From the IMG/VR virus record IMGVR_UViG_3300020731_000031, positions 1 through 46,073 of that record: DNA of 46,073 bases, one strand, 5' to 3'. Positions 1,236 through 33,116 of this stretch are shown here, piece after piece; within the stretch, counting starts at the first letter, position 1, and each line of letters opens with the position of its first letter. The DNA comes from a virus. Both the position numbers and the translations under genes were made by a program. The notes beneath the pieces were generated by a model that was given only the letters and a program-made list of their open reading frames with translations, was not told where the DNA came from and did no database searches.

Positions 1236-1343
1236 ATGGACGAACGGGATGCCAGGTATGTATGTGCATTTTGTAAGAAAATCTATGTTGTGCCATCATT
1301 AGCGAGGGAGTGTGAAGTCAAATGCCTAGAAAAGGCGGGTTAG
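1236..1343 (+). CDS. Small C-x2-C...C-x3-C zinc-finger-like protein, 35 aa
   Basis: 35-residue ORF beginning MDERDARYVCAFCKK. Four cysteines are spaced C10-x2-C13-x15-C29-x3-C33 (CAFC and ECEVKC), a pattern consistent with a single zinc-binding knuckle. There is no Shine-Dalgarno sequence. The ATG sits 7 nt after a TATACT box, suggesting leaderless translation. The 3' end overlaps the start of the KTSC-like gene by 22 nt in another frame, so the two may be translationally coupled. It could be a small regulator; its reality rests on the cysteine pattern and position. Confidence 0.45.
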   Translation: MDERDARYVCAFCKKIYVVPSLARECEVKCLEKAG

Positions 1344-1891
1344 GTCGTAATCTCAATGACCTATACAATAGTCAGCAGTTCGGGGTAACTCCTACTGATA
1401 GCGAATGGCAACCAGGGATGCCATGGGATCCTAAGTACGATCGTCTAGTATTAAGCCCAGAGGCCAGGGCAGCTCGAGATGCGTGGATGCTAGCTAATCC
1501 AGACTGGATAGAGCAGATGCAGGACCGCTATGGGCGACCAGGGCAACTTATACCAGGGCGTAGAGAACCAGAGTCAGAAGTCTTTGGAATCGGCTATGAA
1601 GATATGGAAGCACCTACAACCAACAGTGCATTCCCTAGAGCACGCATATTAGGCTATAACAGGGCCACAGAGACTCTAGTAATCATTTTCCGTGATCAGA
1701 CATGGGTAATGTATGAAAACATCCCAGAAGAGCTCTGGGACGGCGATAACGGCATAGTCAATACTGACTCAGTAGGAAAGTACCTAGCAGCCAATGGTAT
1801 TGACAACTGGCCAGCTAAGAAGCGTATTAACGGATCCGGTGAGCTACCAAGAACTCCTAAGCAGAGCTACACCATGGGTCTCAATGATTAA
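1322..1891 (+). CDS. KTSC-domain-like protein, 189 aa
   Basis: N-terminal half (residues 1-95) is Pro/Arg/Trp-rich and unassigned. Residues about 105-160 run from a conserved-looking IxGYN..TETLVIIF strand pair through WVMYENIP and end SVGKYLAANGI, which fits the KTSC fold (lysyl-tRNA-synthetase-type SxxGKYxNxxI ending) found in phage and bacterial proteins of unknown role. The start ATG follows GAGGGAG at 1303-1309 by a suitable distance. It is followed after 42 nt by the HslV-like peptidase. Role unknown. Confidence 0.75.
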   Translation: MPRKGGLGRNLNDLYNSQQFGVTPTDSEWQPGMPWDPKYDRLVLSPEARAARDAWMLANPDWIEQMQDRYGRPGQLIPGRREPESEVFGIGYEDMEAPTTNSAFPRARILGYNRATETLVIIFRDQTWVMYENIPEELWDGDNGIVNTDSVGKYLAANGIDNWPAKKRINGSGELPRTPKQSYTMGLND

Positions 1892-1933
1892 CTCTATATG
1901 CTATCCTTTAACCCTACCTGGAGGGAAAGTGTA

Positions 1934-2521
1934 ATGACAACTATTGCCGCGATTCAAGGGGACGGATGGGTAGTTATGGGTGCTGACACCCAAGCTACGT
2001 ATTATGAGTACCGTAAGGTGCAAATGACCGACCACAAGGTAATCGACAATAATGGAGTACTAATAGCTGGTTGTGGTCTTGGTCGAGGTATGAACCTCCT
2101 ACAACGTGCTTGGAAGGCCCCAAAACCCCGCGCGAACGCTACTGTCGAACAATTGGATATATGGATGGTAAAGACATTCATTCCTGGGATGCGCAAGCTC
2201 TTCATTGACAATGGCTACGATATGAAGGATGATGGCGACTACGCACAATACGAGAACGTCTTCATTATAGCTGTCCAAGGATTTGTCTACATTATTGATG
2301 AGGATTACTCTTACGACCGAGATATCCGTAAATACATCACTTCTGGCTCCGGTGGCGACTTTGCCCAAGGTTCTCTCTATAGCTCCCTTAAAGCTGGGGG
2401 TAATAAGATATTTACCGATATTGAGTATGCTAAGAAGTCTATGCGTACTGCTATCGACGCCGCGAAAGAGTTTGACATTAATTCTGGTGGAGAGACACGT
2501 ATTTACGTACAAGAAGCATAA
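1934..2521 (+). CDS. HslV/20S-proteasome-type Ntn-hydrolase peptidase
   Basis: 195 aa when started at the ATG at 1934, which follows GGAGGGAAAG by a good spacing; an upstream in-frame ATG at 1898 would hide the catalytic residue. The protein opens M-TTIAAIQGDGWVVMGAD, matching the HslV N terminus. After Met removal Thr1 is the nucleophile, Asp17 lies in GADTQAT and a Lys is at 34 (HslV Lys33). The GSGGDFAQGSL stretch near the C terminus matches the conserved proteasome SGG region. Such enzymes usually form rings fed by an unfoldase; none is encoded here, so it may borrow a host ATPase or act on unfolded phage proteins. A head-maturation role is conjecture. Confidence 0.85.
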   Translation: MTTIAAIQGDGWVVMGADTQATYYEYRKVQMTDHKVIDNNGVLIAGCGLGRGMNLLQRAWKAPKPRANATVEQLDIWMVKTFIPGMRKLFIDNGYDMKDDGDYAQYENVFIIAVQGFVYIIDEDYSYDRDIRKYITSGSGGDFAQGSLYSSLKAGGNKIFTDIEYAKKSMRTAIDAAKEFDINSGGETRIYVQEA

Positions 2522-2588: not shown

Positions 2589-3194
2589 ATGTCAAATCCA
2601 ACAGATACCTCTGGTAACGTCGCTGTTGACTTCGTATGGGGCAACTTGCCTATACAGCCAGACGATCTTCGTCAATCCTCCCCTACTCAGACTGTAACAG
2701 TCGGTGGAGATCAGAATGTAGGATGGACCAACTACGGAACCATCGCATCTGCAAAGCTTCAAGAAAATTACACAAACGTAACCCTCAACAACCTTAGCTA
2801 CACGGTTGCCCCTGATAACCACATAATTGCCAACGAGAACTGGGATTCATACCCAAGCGTTGATGCTCAAATTGGTGTTCTTCCAACTGCACCTGCATAT
2901 GCTCCAATTACTTACCCATCAGGTTCTGGCGTAATTAGCTCATCAACTGTTGTTACTGTTCCTAACGTTGTTGGTGTAGGACTTCAGTATGCTGATGAAA
3001 CCCTGCACGCTGCAGGTCTTGACGTTGTTGTAGCAGACACCACCTCAGGTGCTACTGCTGCTAACCACGATACTGTATACAGCCAGAGCGTTGCTGCTGG
3101 TGCTACCGGTATCACACAGGGTACTGCAGTTACAATCACCGTCTACAAGTTCCACGATGCAACTTCAAACCCATCAGGTAACTACAACGGATAA
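2589..3194 (+). CDS. PASTA-domain phage structural-type protein, 201 aa
   Basis: Residues 1-115 are Thr/Asn-rich beta-type sequence with no recognised family. Residues about 120-190 form one PASTA-like domain: VPNVVGVGLQYADETLHAAG, then YSQSVAAGATGITQGTAVTITV. PASTA domains bind cell-wall peptidoglycan or act as extracellular beta modules. In actinobacterial phages they occur in virion decoration or wall-contact proteins, so an exposed virion protein is the best guess. There is no signal peptide. A strong hairpin (3213-3243) follows the stop, making this the last gene of its unit. Confidence 0.75.
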   Translation: MSNPTDTSGNVAVDFVWGNLPIQPDDLRQSSPTQTVTVGGDQNVGWTNYGTIASAKLQENYTNVTLNNLSYTVAPDNHIIANENWDSYPSVDAQIGVLPTAPAYAPITYPSGSGVISSSTVVTVPNVVGVGLQYADETLHAAGLDVVVADTTSGATAANHDTVYSQSVAAGATGITQGTAVTITVYKFHDATSNPSGNYNG

Positions 3195-3718: not shown

Positions 3719-4531
3719 ATGCCACAGAATATTGTACAAGCAGGTGGGCGACGCCGTAGAGGCGGAGGAATAGCCGGACTTATCGGCAATGCACTGGGAA
3801 TGCAGAGCAACATGCTCTTCCTTAATCAGCAAACTGAAGAGATGAATAAGCGTGCCCAAAATGAGGCATCTGCTAAGGCTGCTGGAGATATCGTAGCTCA
3901 TAAAAAAATTACTGAAAATGCACAGAATGCTTTTATTAACCAGCAAGACTGGGGCCATGCTATACAGAATATGCCGCTTCCTGCAAATCACCCATTGCGT
4001 TCAAGCTTTACAGGTAAAGATACCAGTATCCTAGAAAACTTCCCGCATATTCCTGTAGAGGAATATACTACGGATGTAAAAGGAGACCCGGTTGGTACGG
4101 GCCGCTATATATGGCAACCACATATTCGTGATATTGACTTTGCACGAGTAGGTGGTGCAACAGTTGAGGCTGCTAAGGGAGCGGCTCAACAAAAAGCACG
4201 TGGCCGTTTTAGGCAAGAAACCTCACCTGTACAAGAGGATGTTAAAAGGGGTGCTTCACCCACAGTTAATCAAGAGACTGTTACCCCTGCCCCAACACAA
4301 ACAACTAATGGACGAGTTGTTAACCCAAATTTAAATGAAATTGTTTCAAACATTCAATCTGCGGGACAAAATGCTACACAAGCACCAACAGTTATTCCTT
4401 CAGCACCAACTATGGGTGGGGGCACCCCTAGCCCAGTAACACCATCTCAACCAGCATCAACACCACGTGGTCAGCGTGTACCATTTCGTGCTAGACCAGC
4501 TAATGGATTTCGTATGGGAGGCAACCGATAA
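3719..4531 (+). CDS. Hypothetical Arg/Gly- and Pro/Gln-rich protein, 270 aa
   Basis: Starts with a basic patch (GGRRRRGGG, residues 9-17), then a probable helix with a hydrophobic stretch near IAGLIGNALG. The centre (residues about 75-150) may be folded; residues 165-260 are Pro/Thr/Gln low complexity. It ends FRMGGNR, a motif that recurs near the C terminus of the following 964-residue protein (NFRMGG). The stop codon overlaps the next start by 1 nt (ATAATG), so the pair is translationally coupled and may act together. No known family. Confidence 0.65.
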   Translation: MPQNIVQAGGRRRRGGGIAGLIGNALGMQSNMLFLNQQTEEMNKRAQNEASAKAAGDIVAHKKITENAQNAFINQQDWGHAIQNMPLPANHPLRSSFTGKDTSILENFPHIPVEEYTTDVKGDPVGTGRYIWQPHIRDIDFARVGGATVEAAKGAAQQKARGRFRQETSPVQEDVKRGASPTVNQETVTPAPTQTTNGRVVNPNLNEIVSNIQSAGQNATQAPTVIPSAPTMGGGTPSPVTPSQPASTPRGQRVPFRARPANGFRMGGNR

Positions 4532-7425
4532 TGGCAAAGAAAAAAGGCGCAAAGATTCCTAATCCGGATATAGCGGAGGGAAAAGCTAAAGCTAAAGCAG
4601 CTAAAAAAGAAACTGAAGTATCTAATATAGTTAGAGACTATGCTACTAAAAAAATTGCAAAGGCTGTAGCCCCATTAATTAAGACTACTGAGCCTGAGCC
4701 ACAGGAAGAGCTGACTGACGAACAAAAAGCTGCAAAGCTAGAAGCAGAAAAAAAGAACATTGTTTCTACTCCCCCTAATGCTTCCGGTACTTTTGGTTCA
4801 CTAGGTGAGAAGTCAACTGTTCCACGTAAACCAGCAAAGCTAGATGAAAAGTCTGCTGCAGCTGATTTGGCAGATGTAGCTGAAGGGCGTGCTGCAGAGC
4901 AAGCCGCTGCTGCTCTTGAGGTTACTGAGGCACGCCCAGGTGAAGAACTACCTACTGAGGTGCAGAACAGAAATGCCGTAAATATTGCGGAATCTAAGAA
5001 GATTGCTAAGAAGCGTGCAGAAGACGCCGCAGCTAAAAAGGCAGAAGTTATGTCTGCACCAGCTGCCCCAACAGTTGATCTAGATACCGCAGCATATGAA
5101 GAAGTTCCCGCTGGACCTACCCGACCAGGTAATGCGCCACGCCTTTCAACTTCTACTACATTTACAGGCCCTGATACTGCTAATCGTGGACTTAGTGAAG
5201 GACAAGAAGCTGCAGCAGCTCAGGCTACACAAGAACGTCAAGCTGCTTTTGATTTAGTAGACCCATGGCGTAGAGAAAACGCCCTTGCTGCATTTGGTGG
5301 AGAAGGAATTGAACTAAGTGGTGGTGAGCGTGCGGTTACAGATTCTCCTGAAATTATGGGTGCAGCTAGAGCTTTAGCTATTCAATCCCATAAAGCAAAG
5401 TATCAAGAACTTCTTAACCAGGCTGCGGATGCTGGTAAAAAGAAATATATCTTTAAGCAACAAGACTTTCAGCGTAAAGCAAAGCTACATGGCCCAGAAC
5501 CAAAACCAGAAGATTTAACAGACCTTGCCCTACAGGGTAGCGAGCATCAACGTCATGCTCGTATTTTGGCGTATACAGGCATATCATATTCAGATCTTCA
5601 GCATTATTTGGGTACAAATGAAAAAGAACGCATTGCTCGTGGGAATGATCTTCATGAGCGCGTTATGCAAGATCAGCGCTCTCGTAACCGAATTGACGTA
5701 GTTGAGCCACGTGGTGGTCAAGCCAGCATGTTTAAAAACCCCGATGGTTCTTGGCGTGAAGATGTAATGTGGAGACATCCGGACGTTACTCAAGAAGATG
5801 GCTCATTGCACCCAGATTCTGGAAAACTATTTAAAGTATCTGAACAGCACCCAACTATGCTTAATGAGCTTGCTGATTCTGAGTGGGGCGGTAAAAGAAC
5901 AGAACAACCATTTGAAGGTTTCGCTGTGCTTAAAGAAACCCCCGCACTTCCTGACTCTGTGCCAGCGTCTCAGCGTTTTCGCTATAGCGCAGAGAACATG
6001 GCTAAAATGGGTGACTACCGACCTGTTACAGGACATTTTGGTCACGTATTAGTAAAGGGTGATGAAACTCGCCCAAGCTATATTAAATTTGTAAAGCCAC
6101 CACAAGGATACCTAGAAGGTAATCCAAAGGGTTTAACTTCAGCTGTTGGTGCTCTTGTAGAGAATGCTAAGGCTGGCGGCACTGCTACACGTGGTCCACT
6201 CAAGCGCTCTAACGCAGGAACTGCTGCAGCCGAACTTGTTGCAAATGCTGGGGGCACACGTCGTATTCCGTTTAGTTCTCCTTCTGATAACCCTAACTTT
6301 AGGGTTGGGCAAGAAGTTATTACTCAAAATGGTCTAGATACACCTATGACGCTAGACGAGCATGGTAACCGAGTTGCGGTACCACCTCGTTCTGGTAAAG
6401 CTGGTACAGGCCAAACTTATCTATCTCGTCAAACTTCTGATCTTACTCCTCTTTTCCGTTCTCCTGCAGAAGCATCTGCTGAAGCTATGGAAGCTCAAGG
6501 TACTGAAGACGCGCAGGGTGCCTCACAGCAGATTGAAGTAAATAAGGCGCTTGGTGATAGTTCACTCAATAAAAGCCGTATTGGTGGTGGAAATCGTCGT
6601 CGTGGCACCTTCTCAATGCTTCCACCACAATTTGCTAAGCAGGAAGTACTTCCAGGATTTGAGCACTGGGGTGGGGTTAGTGAGCATGTAGATAGTATGG
6701 GTGCTCTTGAAATAACACGCCCTAGTGGTGAAAGGGCAACGATTCCAGCTGTTCCAGCTGAAACCCGTTCAACAGGTCTTCCAGACTCTCGCGTTTTACG
6801 TCAACAAGCTGAAGCGCAGATGTCACAGCACTACAGCACTGAAGAGAACACTGCTGAAGCTGCAAAGCCAAGTGAATGGAGTCAACCTCAGATTGACTTT
6901 AATGCGGGTGCGCCTGAAGGCTCTCCAAGTAGAGCTCAAGTTAGTCGTCAATGGTTGGGCGGAAATTACGATACGCCAAATAGCTCACGTACTTCAGAGC
7001 TACAACGCGTATCACAACAAGGTAACCCACCAAGTCAGGGCCCTGCCCTTACTGGACGACGTAAGCCACATCTTGTTAATCTACCAAATCCATTTGATAT
7101 TGCTCAAGAAGGAAAAGAACCACTTCCTACACAGCAACCATCAGGTATTGCAACAAGTGAGCTAGCTGTAGACGCAGGAACACCAAGTTCTAAGGCTAAG
7201 GGCAAACTTACTCGTGCAAAGACCAAAAAGATTAAAGCTGCTGGTGGCACACCAAAGCGTACTAAGAAAACAGGCACACCGGCCACTAAACTAGCTACGA
7301 TGCCTAACTTTAGAATGGGAGGAGTAGACGTAAGCTCTACCTCTACCAGAAAGACAGGCGCTGGTCGTACAGCAGAGTTTGGTTCTGGATTTTCAGTTCA
7401 CAATGGTGAAGAGCAAGAAGAGTAA
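4531..7425 (+). CDS. Large Lys/Ala-rich unknown protein, 964 aa
   Basis: No recognised enzymatic domain. Residues 1-190 are Lys/Ala/Glu-rich and probably helical, starting MAKKKGAKIPNPDIAEGKAK. The middle (about 225-560) looks more folded, with YTGISYSDLQHYLGTNEKER and several Trp/His-containing segments. Residues 560-880 are Gly/Ser/Gln-rich, and residues 890-925 form a strongly basic, histone-H1-like patch rich in KAKGK and KRTKKT. A NFRMGG motif near residue 930 matches the end of the preceding protein. Its size and composition suggest an internal virion or DNA-associated protein; this is inference. Confidence 0.65.
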   Translation: MAKKKGAKIPNPDIAEGKAKAKAAKKETEVSNIVRDYATKKIAKAVAPLIKTTEPEPQEELTDEQKAAKLEAEKKNIVSTPPNASGTFGSLGEKSTVPRKPAKLDEKSAAADLADVAEGRAAEQAAAALEVTEARPGEELPTEVQNRNAVNIAESKKIAKKRAEDAAAKKAEVMSAPAAPTVDLDTAAYEEVPAGPTRPGNAPRLSTSTTFTGPDTANRGLSEGQEAAAAQATQERQAAFDLVDPWRRENALAAFGGEGIELSGGERAVTDSPEIMGAARALAIQSHKAKYQELLNQAADAGKKKYIFKQQDFQRKAKLHGPEPKPEDLTDLALQGSEHQRHARILAYTGISYSDLQHYLGTNEKERIARGNDLHERVMQDQRSRNRIDVVEPRGGQASMFKNPDGSWREDVMWRHPDVTQEDGSLHPDSGKLFKVSEQHPTMLNELADSEWGGKRTEQPFEGFAVLKETPALPDSVPASQRFRYSAENMAKMGDYRPVTGHFGHVLVKGDETRPSYIKFVKPPQGYLEGNPKGLTSAVGALVENAKAGGTATRGPLKRSNAGTAAAELVANAGGTRRIPFSSPSDNPNFRVGQEVITQNGLDTPMTLDEHGNRVAVPPRSGKAGTGQTYLSRQTSDLTPLFRSPAEASAEAMEAQGTEDAQGASQQIEVNKALGDSSLNKSRIGGGNRRRGTFSMLPPQFAKQEVLPGFEHWGGVSEHVDSMGALEITRPSGERATIPAVPAETRSTGLPDSRVLRQQAEAQMSQHYSTEENTAEAAKPSEWSQPQIDFNAGAPEGSPSRAQVSRQWLGGNYDTPNSSRTSELQRVSQQGNPPSQGPALTGRRKPHLVNLPNPFDIAQEGKEPLPTQQPSGIATSELAVDAGTPSSKAKGKLTRAKTKKIKAAGGTPKRTKKTGTPATKLATMPNFRMGGVDVSSTSTRKTGAGRTAEFGSGFSVHNGEEQEE

Positions 7426-8804: not shown

Positions 8805-9087
8805 GAAAAAAGAAGTAGCTGGCGGCAAAGAGTACAAAGGCTCGGCTGCTAACGGTGGTCGTAAGATCATTGTTGAGCACTACAAAGACTCTAAAGGTAA
8901 GTGGCACACTACTTCTAAGAATGCTGCTCGTGCTAAGTATGAGAAGAAGCATGGCAAGCTGTCTAAGGGCACAGATGTTGACCACAAAGACAATAACCAT
9001 GATAATGATAGTGCCAGTAACTTGCGCCCTTTAAAGCACGGCAAAAATACCGCTAAGGAGAATAAGCGTAGAGCCGGTAATAAGTAG
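8794..9087 (+). CDS. Small HNH-endonuclease-like protein, 97 aa
   Basis: The N-terminal half is Lys-rich (MATKKKEVAGGKEYKG). Residues about 58-92 carry VDHKDNNHDNDSASNLRPL followed by HGKNTAKENK. This matches the HNH pattern D-H-x-D...N-D...N-L-R-P-L...N...N-K, in which the His and the Asn residues form the metal site. Small HNH proteins often lie near phage terminase genes and can help packaging, though others are mobile nicking enzymes. It ends 1 nt before a minus-strand tRNA-Gln, so it is convergent with the lysozyme/tRNA transcript. Confidence 0.65.
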   Translation: MATKKKEVAGGKEYKGSAANGGRKIIVEHYKDSKGKWHTTSKNAARAKYEKKHGKLSKGTDVDHKDNNHDNDSASNLRPLKHGKNTAKENKRRAGNK

Positions 9088-9088
9088 G

Positions 9089-9159
9089 CTCCCGAACATG
9101 GATTCGAACCACAACTGAGTGCTCCAGAGGCACCTGTACTACCGTTATACGATTCGGGA
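9089..9159 (-). tRNA. tRNA-Gln (CUG anticodon)
   Basis: Minus-strand cloverleaf. The acceptor stem TCCCGAA/TTCGGGA is perfect (9153-9159 and 9090-9096) with discriminator G. The anticodon stem GGTGC/GCACT encloses the loop CTCTGGA, giving CUG, which reads CAG. The T loop TTCGAAT is canonical. CCA is not fully encoded. It would supplement CAG decoding in Gln-rich late genes. Confidence 0.85.
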
Positions 9160-9217
9160 ATAAATGGGGAGAATATACCTATCGTAATTGCTCGCATACG
9201 GAATAGATATACCTCCG

Positions 9218-9258
9218 TGGGAGTACCCAGAGTCGAACTGGGATGTCCATTTACTCCC
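9218..9258 (-). ncRNA. tRNA-like acceptor/T-arm minihelix
   Basis: On the minus strand GGGAGTA (9252-9258) pairs perfectly with TACTCCC (9219-9225). Inside it is a perfect T stem, CCCAG/CTGGG, around a canonical TTCGACT loop. Only 9 nt (AATGGACAT) join the 5' acceptor strand to the T stem, so D arm and anticodon arm are absent. Discriminator is A. It lies between tRNA-Leu and tRNA-Gln. It may be a tRNA that lost its middle, or a retained minihelix RNA; perfect pairing of both stems argues against old decay. Confidence 0.5.
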
Positions 9259-9326
9259 TGAAGAGCCCTCACTAGAGTAAGTCATATGTCTCATACCATA
9301 TGGAACTTTCTAGACTTTTGAGCTCG

Positions 9327-9399
9327 TGCACCAAGTAGGACTCGAACCTACAACCACTAGTTCCTAAGACTAGCGCCTCTACCATTGGGCTATTAGTGC
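9327..9399 (-). tRNA. tRNA with UAG anticodon (Leu, CUA codon), short variable loop
   Basis: Minus-strand cloverleaf. Acceptor GCACTAA/TTGGTGC (one G-T pair), D arm GCCC...AGGC, anticodon stem CTAGT/ACTAG around CTTAGGA (anticodon UAG, reading CUA), T arm GTAGG-TTCGAGT-CCTAC, discriminator A. A Leu tRNA should have a long variable arm; here it is TGGTT, 5 nt. A73 and G37 fit Leu CUN decoding, yet the body looks class I. CUA codons are frequent in the surrounding genes. Confidence 0.8.
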
Positions 9400-9403
9400 T
9401 TGG

Positions 9404-9477
9404 TTGCGGGAGTGGGATTTGAACCCACGACCTAGAGCTTATGAGGCTCCCGAGCTTCCGAGCTGCTCTATCCCGCA
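9404..9477 (-). tRNA. tRNA-Met (CAU anticodon)
   Basis: Minus-strand cloverleaf. Acceptor TGCGGGA/TCCCGCA is fully paired, the D arm is GAGC-AGCTCGGAA-GCTC, anticodon stem GGAGC/GCTCT encloses CTCATAA (anticodon CAU), and the T arm is GTGGG-TTCAAAT-CCCAC. The D arm resembles actinobacterial initiator tRNA, but the U1-A72 pair and the lack of three G-C pairs in the anticodon stem argue against an initiator. Elongator Met, or Ile after lysidine modification, are both possible. Only 4 nt separate it from tRNA-Leu. Confidence 0.85.
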
Positions 9478-17550: not shown

Positions 17551-18651
17551 GTGGCGACGATTCAGACCCTGTCTAATAGGCTAAGAGCTGAAATTGGCGA
17601 TGTCGGCAAATCTTTCACTGAAACCTTTACTGGTGATGGATTCACCAATCGCTTTCAATTGGCATATGCTCCAGTACGTGGAGCTAGCATCCGTGTAACT
17701 GTTAACGGTGTGAATATGACTTCCATAACCAATGTAGAGGAAGTTAGCGGTCTTTTTCAATTAGCCGCAACCCCACCAGATAATGCCGTCATTACTGTAA
17801 GCGGAGTGGCATTTAAATACTTTACTGATGAAGAAATACAATATTACGTTGCTCAGGCTTTTTATGAGCATGCCCATACCGAAACTGGTACAGATGGCAT
17901 GGTATATACCCTCCCAACTCTCCCACTAGTTGATGAGTTCCCCCTAGTTATTCTTGCCTCAAGTATGGCACTTTATACCCTTGCAACTGATGCATCGTTT
18001 GATATTGACATCTCATCTCCGGACGGAGTAACAATTCCACGTTCTGAGCGTTACCGCCAGCTTATGGAGATTGTTCAGGCACGTAAGGACCAGTACAAGG
18101 AACTATGCTCAATGTTGAACATTGGCATGTACCGTATGGAGGTTCAGACACTGCGTCGTGTCAGCCGCCTTACAAATCGTTATGTACCTATTTACAAGCC
18201 ACAAGAAGTTGATGATGGCTCTATCCCACAACGCGTATGGCTTTCTATGCCTACTTACGGAGATCAGACACCTGCGGGTCCTGCTGTACCTAAGGATCTT
18301 GAAATGTACGCGGGAGATGACTTTATTAGTACTCCGTTTACCTTTGATCAAGACCTTACAAACTTTGATGCTCTCGCACAGATTCGCCTATTCCCTCAGC
18401 AACCTGATAGCCAAGTAGGGCCTCTTATCCTTGGAACCTTCACCATCACTAAGTCTGCGTCTAGGACAGGTGGTATTTTGGATACCCTTACCCTATACTT
18501 GCCTGGAGAAGCTACTGCAGATCTCCCTATGACCGCATATTGGGATCTACGCCTGCACGATAATGTTAAGAACCTTACTAAGACTTTCCTAGCAGGAAAG
18601 GTCTTTACAACACCAAGCGTTTCCAATTCTACTAGTGGAGAGTTCAATTGA
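17551..18651 (+). CDS. Head-tail connector/neck protein with extra C-terminal domain, 366 aa
   Basis: GTG start after TTGGAGGATT. Residues 1-205: an N-terminal helix ([19 protein letters not shown]), a beta insertion ([20 protein letters not shown]), then a helical connector core [20 protein letters not shown] and [20 protein letters not shown] with [18 protein letters not shown], all typical of phage head-tail adaptor folds. Residues about 235-350 ([31 protein letters not shown]) form a beta domain like those in baseplate or fiber proteins. The fusion suggests a neck protein bearing a whisker-like extension. Its stop overlaps the TTG start of the collagen-like fiber gene. Confidence 0.65.
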
Positions 18652-20930
18652 CCGATTACAATGAGCCGAACCTCATTGGTATGCCTTCGGATAATACCAA
18701 TGACCCTAGTCTTTACCTGCTCGGATTAAATCAACAGAATGGTTCTACTGGACCTACCGGCCCAATAGGCCCACAAGGCCCTACGGGACCTTCAGGAGCT
18801 GCGGGTGCCACTGGTGCTACCGGATCTGCTGTAACAGGCGCTACGGGCGCTACAGGCCCTACAGGAGCCACTGGAGCGACAGGCCCTGCAGGTGATGTAG
18901 GACCTGCTGGTAATACTGGTCCTACCGGTATTCAAGGAACTATTGGCCACACTGGTGCAACGGGAGCTACCGGTGCAACCGGTGTTGCTGGCCCGACAGG
19001 AAGTCAAGGACCTACAGGTAATGCTGGCCCAGCCGGTGCTACTGGTATTCAAGGAGCCACAGGCGCCACAGGATCAACTGGTGTAGCTGGACCTACCGGT
19101 GCTACAGGAAATGTTGGTCCAACAGGACCTCAGGGTATTCATGGTTCTACTGGCGCAACTGGAGCTACTGGTGTAGCAGGACCAACTGGTACACCTGGTG
19201 TTACAGGCGCTACTGGTGCAACTGGTGCAACCGGTCATGGAATTAATGTACTTGGTTCATTTGCAAATCTTTCCGACTTACAAGCCGCACACCCAATTGG
19301 AAGTCTTGGCGATTCATACTTAATTAACGGCTCATTATATGTGTGGACTGGTTCTAGCTGGTATGCCGCTGGAAATGTTCAGGGACCAACAGGTGTTGCT
19401 GGTGCAACTGGGGCAACAGGACCTTCTGGACAACAGGGTATACAAGGTATTCAAGGTGCTCGTGGAGATCTTGGTCCTACTGGCCCACAAGGTGTCCAAG
19501 GAATCCAGGGACCAACTGGTGCACAAGGCCCAACTGGTGAACGTGGTCTAATTGGACCTACTGGTATTGGTGTCACTGGTGCAACCGGCGCTACATCTAC
19601 AATTCCTGGACCAACTGGTCCACAAGGACCAACTGGTCCACAGGGCGTATCCATCAACTATCAGGGTACTCTTGCAAACACTGCTGCTCTACAGACTATT
19701 ACAGGTCAGCATATTAACGATGCTTACATTATTGGTAACGATCTCTGGGTATGGGAAGGAACTACGTGGGATAACGTAGGGCCTATTGTCGGTCCTCAAG
19801 GACCACAAGGTATTCAAGGACCTACCGGTGTTACCGGCCCAACTGGTGCAGGAGCTACAGGTGCTACCGGAACTACAGGTGCTACAGGCGTTACAGGTGC
19901 TACTGGAGCGCAAGGTTTACAAGGTTTACAAGGAGTTCAAGGTTTACAGGGTGTTCAGGGTAATGTTGGACCTACCGGTGCAACAGGTGCGACAGGATTA
20001 TCTGTAACTGGAGCTACCGGAGCAACGGGACCCACTGGAGCTACAGGGCATACTGGCCCAACAGGCTCTACTGGTGCTACAGGACCAGGTTCTACAGTGT
20101 TAAGTACAACCCCTCCATCAAGCCCTTCACTAGGAGATCACTGGATTGATGATGCTTCTGGAATTGAGTATACTTGGACTACAGATGGAGTCAATAATTA
20201 CTGGGTTGAGCTTGCCCCATCAGGATACTGGGGACCTACAGGCGCAACTGGCCCTACTGGTGCTACCGGTAACGCCTCTACTATTCCTGGTCCAACAGGT
20301 CCTACTGGATTAACTGGGGCCACCGGAGCTACTGGTTCTACAGGACCAACCGGTGCAACAGGTGTCACAGGATCTACAGGGGCTAATTCAACTGTACCTG
20401 GACCAACAGGTTTAACTGGACCTACCGGACCTACTGGTGCTACAGGGCCTACTGGTAATGCAAGTACAGTCCCAGGACCTACGGGACCAACGGGCACAAC
20501 TGGCGCTACGGGCGCTACAGGAACTATTGGTGGAAACACTGTAGTAACCGGCCTACTTGAGAATACAAACGTAGTCTCTACTGCTCCAACAGGCACTGTA
20601 AATATTGATATTGTTACCTCAAGCTTTTGGTACTTTACTACTGCCCCATCAGCAAGTTACGCCCTAAATATTAGAGGAAACTCAACCACAACCTTAGCTA
20701 GTCTGATGGCTATAGGACAGTCTGTAACAATCTCCGTATTAAATACAAACAGCTCAAACGCTTTTTATATTAACGCCTTTAATATTGACGGGGCTACTGT
20801 CACCCCTCTTTGGACCGGAGGTAATGCTATTACGGTAGGACACACTAGTGGAATAGACGCGTATTCCTATACCATTGTAAGAACTTCTAGTGGTTATACC
20901 GTATTTGCGGGAATGAGTAAATTCGCATGA
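18648..20930 (+). CDS. Collagen-like tail fiber/adhesin, 760 aa
   Basis: TTG start overlapping the previous TGA. Most of residues 28-625 are Gly-X-Y triplets, chiefly GPT-GAT-GAT, that should form a trimeric collagen helix. Three non-collagen inserts break it. Those near 198-246 and 334-381 are homologous (FANLSDLQ...LYVWTG and LANTAALQ...LWVWEG). The one near 482-528 has [13 protein letters not shown] and resembles the N-terminal module of the gene at 21640. Residues 626-760 are a globular beta tip ([12 protein letters not shown]...), probably the trimerising or receptor-binding head. First gene of the adhesin island. Coding repeats make the DNA internally repetitive. Confidence 0.88.
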
Positions 20931-32063: not shown

Positions 32064-33116
32064 ATGAAAGTAGCTATATACACTGTTGCAAAAAATGAAG
32101 AGCAGTTTGTACAACGCTGGTATGACTCAGCTAAGGATGCGGACTATCTTCTAATTGCGGATACCGGATCTACAGACGGTACCGTTGAGCTGGCCAAGAG
32201 TCTTGGCATCAATACATTCTCTATAAGCATAGATCCCTGGCGATTTGATGACGCCCGAAATGCTAGCTTAGCTTTGATCCCCAGCGATATCGATTACTGC
32301 ATCTGTATAGATATGGATGAGGTAATTAAACCTGGTTGGAGGGATGCCCTAGAAGTGGCCTTTAAACAGGGCTGGACGCGTCCTAGACACCTTTTGACAA
32401 CGAGTTGGAACCCAGATGGCAGCCCAGGATTTCAGTTCTCTGCAATGCGTATAACGGCCCGTAAAGGGTATCGTTGGAAATACCCAATTCACGAGATTCA
32501 AACTGCTTATGGCATTTCTGAAACCCAAGGCTGGGTTGACCTAGAGGTTGAACACCACCCAGATAATAATAAGTCTAGAGGTAGCTATTTACCTATGCTG
32601 GCAATGGCGGTACAGGAGTATCCCAGAGATGCTCGATGCTCATTCTACTATGGGCGTGAACTTTACTTTCACAAGCTCTATAGCGAAGCAACAGCTGAGC
32701 TTGCTAGATATTTAGAACTAGAAGAGGCTGTATGGAAACCACAAAGGGCCAACGCTTATTGGTATCTTGCAGAAACTAATCCGAATAATGCCGAACTCCA
32801 CTTATTGGCTGGGTATAACGAGGACCCAACTAGACGTGAATGTGCGGTTAAATTAGCCCAGTACTATCATGACACGGCTGATTGGGAGGCGTGTAAGAAG
32901 TGGGCACTAACAGCTTTGGCCATAAAAGACAAGCCCCTAGACTATTTCTGTGAGGCTTGGGCTTGGAATGGCAACCCACACGATCTACTTAGCCTAGCGG
33001 CATATCACTCTGGGGACTATACTTTGGCTATAGAACATGGGGAAATCGCTCTGAGTCTAGACCCAGAGAATGAGCGTCTCAAAACTAATATGGGATTCTA
33101 CCTAAGCAAGGCTTAA
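32064..33116 (+). CDS. Family 2 glycosyltransferase with TPR-like C terminus, 350 aa
   Basis: GT-A fold: MKVAIYTVAKNEEQFVQRWY at the N terminus, nucleotide-sugar motif DTGSTDGT (33-40), and the metal-binding DxD-type CIDMDEV (about 82-87). An acceptor-side region has RITARKGYRWKYPIHEIQ. Residues about 175-350 are helical with TPR-like repeats (CSFYYGRELYFHKLYSEATA, AYHSGDYTLAIEHGEIALSL). GT2-TPR enzymes glycosylate proteins or lipids. Its place among fiber genes suggests it sugars virion adhesins, or alters host surface glycans. It appears complete. Expression looks separate from its neighbours (own -10, no ribosome-binding site). Confidence 0.87.
   Translation: MKVAIYTVAKNEEQFVQRWYDSAKDADYLLIADTGSTDGTVELAKSLGINTFSISIDPWRFDDARNASLALIPSDIDYCICIDMDEVIKPGWRDALEVAFKQGWTRPRHLLTTSWNPDGSPGFQFSAMRITARKGYRWKYPIHEIQTAYGISETQGWVDLEVEHHPDNNKSRGSYLPMLAMAVQEYPRDARCSFYYGRELYFHKLYSEATAELARYLELEEAVWKPQRANAYWYLAETNPNNAELHLLAGYNEDPTRRECAVKLAQYYHDTADWEACKKWALTALAIKDKPLDYFCEAWAWNGNPHDLLSLAAYHSGDYTLAIEHGEIALSLDPENERLKTNMGFYLSKA

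Follow-up and report, generated by a model that had tools for sequence, protein, structure and literature searches.

A proteasome-like threonine peptidase encoded in a phage-only clade linked to actinobacterial hosts

Introduction

The locus described here raises the question of which kind of proteasome-type peptidase a phage genome may encode and what such an enzyme might do during infection. The window, i.e., the whole stretch of DNA analysed, comprises 46,073 nucleotides and corresponds to a 46 kb IMG/VR contig classed as linear and possibly a fragment. The original prediction, made from the sequence, was of an HslV/proteasome-type peptidase that might represent a new kind of phage protease. 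The kind itself is not new, since the phage proteasome homologs PPH and AAH were described and named in 2021 (PMC8665760), and an "HslV" without HslU was reported in a Salmonella jumbo-phage paper (PMC7823757). Sequences of such homologs have thus been available since 2021, but the literature searched yielded no functional study of any phage member.

Results and Discussion

The peptidase gene

The peptidase gene (Table 1) is read from the plus strand and consists of 195 codons with a stop-free translation beginning M-TTIAAIQ. Met-Thr-Thr is the start in most relatives, with a purine-rich Shine-Dalgarno sequence immediately 5', while an in-frame ATG at 1898, which would open a longer reading frame, is not conserved among them. 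The Pfam family PF00227 matched the protein barely over threshold (E=6.9e-5, 23.0 bits, cut-off 22.4) and matched 55 of 63 aligned members at E<=0.01, and the phrog_1040 profile, labelled "peptidase HslV family", returned E=2e-24. Sixteen IMG/VR relatives, 40-88% identical, were fetched and aligned. The median pN/pS was 0.27 with synonymous sites near saturation, and the median dN/dS was 0.10 where defined. On these sequence comparisons, the gene is judged to be under purifying selection and not a chance ORF, and to be real and apparently intact.

The gene is the second of a rightward run whose first gene follows a divergent one, and the terminase gene lies about 8.5 kb downstream. Its placement in a late region, as originally proposed, may be read from the strand only. 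Scans for promoters and terminators around the gene returned no signal exceeding that of shuffled sequences. As for variants among the relatives, an ATC instead of ATG apparently opens the gene in L006 (4260) and L010 (3042), with a Shine-Dalgarno sequence in front, and the copy at L089:1002-1544 carries an in-frame stop.

Table 1. Coordinates of the peptidase gene, its active-site features and its neighbours in the window
Feature	Position	Strand	Evidence or remark
KTSC-domain protein, 189 aa, first gene of the rightward run	1322..1891	+	Pfam PF13619, E=2.6e-6; cluster c16
Shine-Dalgarno sequence GGAGGG	1920-1925	+	Sequence; strong ribosome-binding site, 8 nt before the start codon; similar purine-rich sequence in relatives
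Ntn threonine peptidase of 195 aa, proteasome-like, probably of the group I BPH/AAH type	1934..2521	+
Codon of nucleophile Thr1 (exposed once Met is removed)	1937..1939	+	Invariant, 63/63
Codon of catalytic Asp17	1985..1987	+	Invariant, 63/63
Codon of catalytic Lys34 (shifted by one residue from Lys33 of proteasome and HslV)	2036..2038	+	Invariant, 63/63
Acidic pore loop GYDMKDDGDYA, residues 94-104, from H2 to the next strand	2213..2245	+	Position from model
GSGG motif, residues 138-141, active site	2345..2356	+
PASTA-domain protein, 201 aa, next downstream gene	2589..3194	+	Pfam PF03793, E=6.4e-8; cluster c15

Catalytic residues and predicted fold

The original prediction had pointed to Thr1, Asp17, a Lys at 34 and the GSGG motif as evidence of an intact Ntn hydrolase. 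All of these are present in the window protein, the three catalytic residues do not vary in alignment A3 (63 sequences), and the GxG within the GSGG motif is likewise invariant there. An AlphaFold monomer built on the 63-sequence alignment reached a pLDDT of 92.3 and a pTM of 0.89, and replaced a model from 17 close sequences only (pLDDT 66). The protein is predicted to adopt the four-layer alpha-beta-beta-alpha fold of the proteasome, with all four helices present and H2 formed by residues 71-92.

Comparison of the model with the PDB by Foldseek placed BPH (5ovs) first (TM 0.73/0.76), followed by HslV (about 0.66) and 20S beta subunits (about 0.65); 1242 PDB matches were returned at E<=0.001, and all those listed were proteasome, HslV or BPH. 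The same order was obtained with a profile of the 63 sequences, whose best match was BPH 5ovu (E=8.7e-16), then HslV (1.9e-14) and the 20S beta subunits. Profile search and structure prediction had been named beforehand as the analyses able to overturn the assignment; the protein stayed within the Ntn-hydrolase superfamily in the former and the latter returned the fold described above.

The densest conserved stretch of the peptidase corresponds to residues 94-104, within the loop that follows H2 in the model. Ten of these 11 residues are invariant in the 17 sequences of the window's subfamily (permutation p about 0.001), and family-wide the pore loop of about 15 residues contains a median of five acidic residues.

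Probable assignment to the BPH/AAH type

The window protein is a proteasome-like protein, most probably of group I and the BPH/AAH type, and not an HslV. It resembles HslV (ClpQ) in its fold, catalytic residues and GSGG motif and in the annotation label of phrog_1040. However, it scored 15.4 and 15.0 bits against the HslV equivalog models, about tenfold below their cut-offs of 137 and 157.75, and its pore loop is extended and acidic like that of BPH, whereas HslV has a short linker at this position (PMC5777263); on both grounds the HslV identity was discarded. Moreover, HslV pairs with HslU, while no HslU partner was found for peptidases of the window type. Against the archaeal 20S beta model the protein scored 20.4 bits, with a cut-off of 224, and the bacterial beta model was not listed for it. 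A profile search of the window for an alpha partner gene returned a single PF00227 match.

The likeness to BPH concerns the nearest solved structure, the Thr1/Asp/Lys residues, the elongated acidic pore loop and the lack of a known unfoldase. In BPH the long, acidic loop after H2 may help to recognise substrates, epoxomicin is bound at Thr1, and activity on model substrates has been hard to demonstrate (PMC5777263). The two proteins differ in that BPH is a bacterial tetradecamer sharing about 20% identity with the window protein, which was predicted as a monomer only, and in the tree BPH forms a very long, weakly placed branch. PPH is also phage-encoded and proteasome-like, but is about 140 aa long and without helix H2 (PMC8665760); since all four helices are present in the model of the 195 aa window protein, the short PPH type is not the one encoded here. 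AAH, which occurs in bacteria and phages, is likewise a proteasome-like protein of group I, and no Actinobacteria-specific phage carrying it was found (PMC8665760).

A phage-only clade and its hosts

In maximum-likelihood trees the window protein fell in a clade of phage sequences only, which includes, besides many environmental contigs, the cultured Planktophila phage E7 (OX376640; PMC10202952), DSL-LC01 and Arthrobacter phage Pitbull. Wherever a host of this clade is known or predicted, it is an actinobacterium, the predicted host of DSL-LC01 being Actinomycetia (PMC10611076). The split was supported at 100/98, and more weakly, at 92/84, in a tree that also contained the distant HslV and BPH rows. 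The sister clade contains rhizobial, Paraburkholderia, Streptomyces and Bacillus plasmid proteins of 180-193 aa, plus other phages. This distribution fits the published one of AAH, so that the sister clade is used here as a taxonomic proxy for AAH; the window's clade differs from it in being phage-only in the present data. This actinophage clade and its gene contexts appear undescribed in the literature searched. Two conserved-peptide pattern scans of GTDB genomes found no relative, and bacterial copies are not excluded by them, as such patterns reach close relatives only.

The host of the window phage is likely actinobacterial, given that its structural genes resemble those of Streptomyces phages BRock and LuckySocke (73-75% for the capsid protein by tblastn and 50-52% for the terminase). 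Two homologs on Sinorhizobium plasmids, both 181 aa proteasome-like proteins, lie between nifQ and an iron-sulfur assembly gene within the plasmid's nitrogen-fixation region: one in S. terangae, with nifS next (L142:2501-3046), the other in S. fredii (L145:1501-2046).

Gene neighbourhood

The order KTSC - peptidase - PASTA, upstream of the terminase, is found in L001, L007, L008, L009, L012 and L015. The cluster of the PASTA-domain protein (c15) is directly 3' of the peptidase in six relatives and elsewhere in others. A different order is typical of the Planktophila phages, i.e., terminase - portal - peptidase - 150 aa protein - 1500-1900 aa protein - scaffold-like protein - capsid, and in 80 of 83 loci the portal and peptidase genes are immediate neighbours, separated by a median of 15 bp. 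In a third arrangement the peptidase lies between thioredoxin (PF00085) and Cpn10/GroES (PF00166) genes (L011:3937-5321, L013:8929-10315 and L014:5400-6798); these are three related loci only, called by Pfam in L011 and by sequence cluster in the other two. In DSL-LC01, Pitbull, MTATph1, E3, XacN1 and D'Alembert the gene is found outside the head module among other genes, adjoining whiB in DSL-LC01. Four relatives (L002, L004, L006 and L011) resemble the window at the DNA level in the peptidase gene only, so that the gene moves singly between phage types.

The PASTA-like proteins of the window, L012 and L015 bear a repeated N-terminal VDFVWGN..QPND motif, present in up to three tandem copies in relatives.

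An ATP-independent peptidase as the preferred reading

The reading that we prefer, and to which we would give an even chance, is that the gene encodes an active, self-compartmentalising (ring-forming) peptidase that acts inside the infected cell, probably without ATP, on unfolded or flexible proteins. The host methionine aminopeptidase would remove Met1, exposing the Thr1 nucleophile to work with Asp17 and Lys34. The subunits would most likely form a closed double ring with the active sites inside, and the long acidic pore loop, rather than a dedicated ATPase, would select unfolded or flexible polypeptides and let them in. The enzyme would most likely serve proteostasis or clearance of phage and/or host proteins during infection of a probably actinobacterial cell, and would not be a dedicated capsid-maturation protease.

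We infer the ring assembly, activity, ATP independence, substrates and biological role from several lines of evidence: the BPH-like model and profile match, the three invariant catalytic residues, the acidic loop as in BPH, purifying selection, the lack of an HslU/ClpX-type match, the thioredoxin - peptidase - Cpn10 order and the gene moving alone. Against this reading, the portal-peptidase pair points to a morphogenesis link in the Planktophila-type lineage, BPH has been hard to show active (PMC5777263), and the thioredoxin - Cpn10 context is limited to three related loci. If the peptidase does work without an ATPase, it would bear on the ATP-independent functions of simple proteasome relatives.

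A possible role in virion morphogenesis

The portal context calls for a second reading, in which the peptidase is made together with the portal and, as heads are assembled, processes proteins of the scaffold, the portal or the virion interior. The slot between portal and capsid genes is the usual place of prohead proteases. In E7 and its relatives the peptidase stands there, before the internal, scaffold and capsid genes and about 15 bp after the portal stop. Different branches of the family occupy the same slot, as in L016 and in L002, whose peptidase is 79% identical to the window protein and nested in its clade. The original prediction had remarked that no head protease was visible, and a profile search for the S78 family found no S78 protease in the window.

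However, the portal adjacency stems largely from one lineage, so that shared descent explains part of it, and many homologs lie outside the head module. Two profile searches detected no homolog of the peptidase in BRock, LuckySocke, Olicious or WRightOn, even though the capsid proteins of the first two are 73-79% identical to that of the window and the portals of the latter two are 44-45% identical to that of E7. LuckySocke gp42, annotated as a peptidase, was considered as a homolog and rejected as unrelated. From residue 1 onwards, the capsid proteins of the carriers can be aligned with their counterparts in LuckySocke and Olicious, with no lineage-specific propeptide, and DSL-LC01 has an S78 protease match over the cut-off alongside the peptidase.

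Since sister phages without the gene share the capsid N-terminus and DSL-LC01 has its S78 match, capsid maturation is unlikely as a general role. These observations speak against the peptidase being required for head maturation in general, and not against a lineage-specific requirement. The virion-maturation role originally proposed keeps in its favour the fixed position behind the portal in Planktophila-type phages. Overall, we regard a morphogenesis role as possible but doubtful, with about half the weight of the ATP-independent reading. Its stronger form seems to us slightly more doubtful still: in a large family of freshwater actinophages, a threonine peptidase with the proteasome fold would be expressed from the portal operon and would serve as the morphogenesis protease, processing portal, scaffold or internal virion proteins. 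A morphogenesis protease of this fold would represent a new structural class of phage assembly protease. The cultured pair of Planktophila phages E7 and F5 on strain LanE-43, together with the fixed portal-adjacent order, makes the role of a phage proteasome subunit testable.

Unfoldase partners and host takeover as less likely readings

We also considered a protease fed by an unfoldase, in which the ring would dock a host ATPase (ClpX or Mpa/ARC) or a MoxR-type AAA+ protein of the phage and degrade folded proteins. A search for an HslU-like or Mpa-like ATPase in the rest of the genome had been suggested earlier. No ATPase of the HslU/ClpX type exceeded the cut-off in phages carrying the peptidase, AAA_2 giving no such match in 19 records and ClpB_D2-small none in 15; the window itself is a fragment. 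Strong matches to MoxR-type AAA_5 ATPases occur in all five long relatives of the window (G001-G005), DSL-LC01 and MTATph1, and are weak in BRock and LuckySocke, which lack the peptidase. However, AAA_5 is absent or weakly matched in the carriers Planktophila phage E7, D'Alembert, Pitbull and E3, and the MoxR ATPase and the peptidase are not in one operon. Relatives of this ATPase were found in 833 phage records, whereas the peptidase occurs in 14, and the MoxR protein was therefore rejected as a dedicated partner, being far commoner. MoxR proteins are not known to be protease partners. Unfoldase-driven degradation is thus regarded as improbable. In relatives of the window, the region upstream of the peptidase contains a MoxR-type AAA_5 ATPase beside an opposite-strand VWA-domain protein (L138:9122-12472 and L137:3756-7010).

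A specific host-takeover or counter-defence protease removing one or few host proteins would agree with the gene moving alone between phages and with its location outside the head module, in the company of small or metabolic genes (next to whiB in DSL-LC01, and in Pitbull, MTATph1, E3 and XacN1), but no defence association was seen, purifying selection is strong, and a pore loop that does not vary suggests a single conserved class of substrate rather than fast-changing host targets, so that we hold it to be no more probable than the unfoldase-fed protease.

Other features of the window

Two adjacent low-complexity proteins (3719-4531 and 4531-7425) have a common C-terminal FRMGG motif, which was not found in relatives. 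A 760 aa protein with collagen-like G-x-y repeats (18648-20930) is encoded in the structural region, and a family 2 glycosyltransferase with a TPR-like C-terminus (32064-33116) inside the tail gene region. Finally, three minus-strand tRNA genes (Gln ctg, Leu tag and Met cat) are located at 9087-9477, and the tRNA-Gln stretch is 98.7% identical to one elsewhere in L001.
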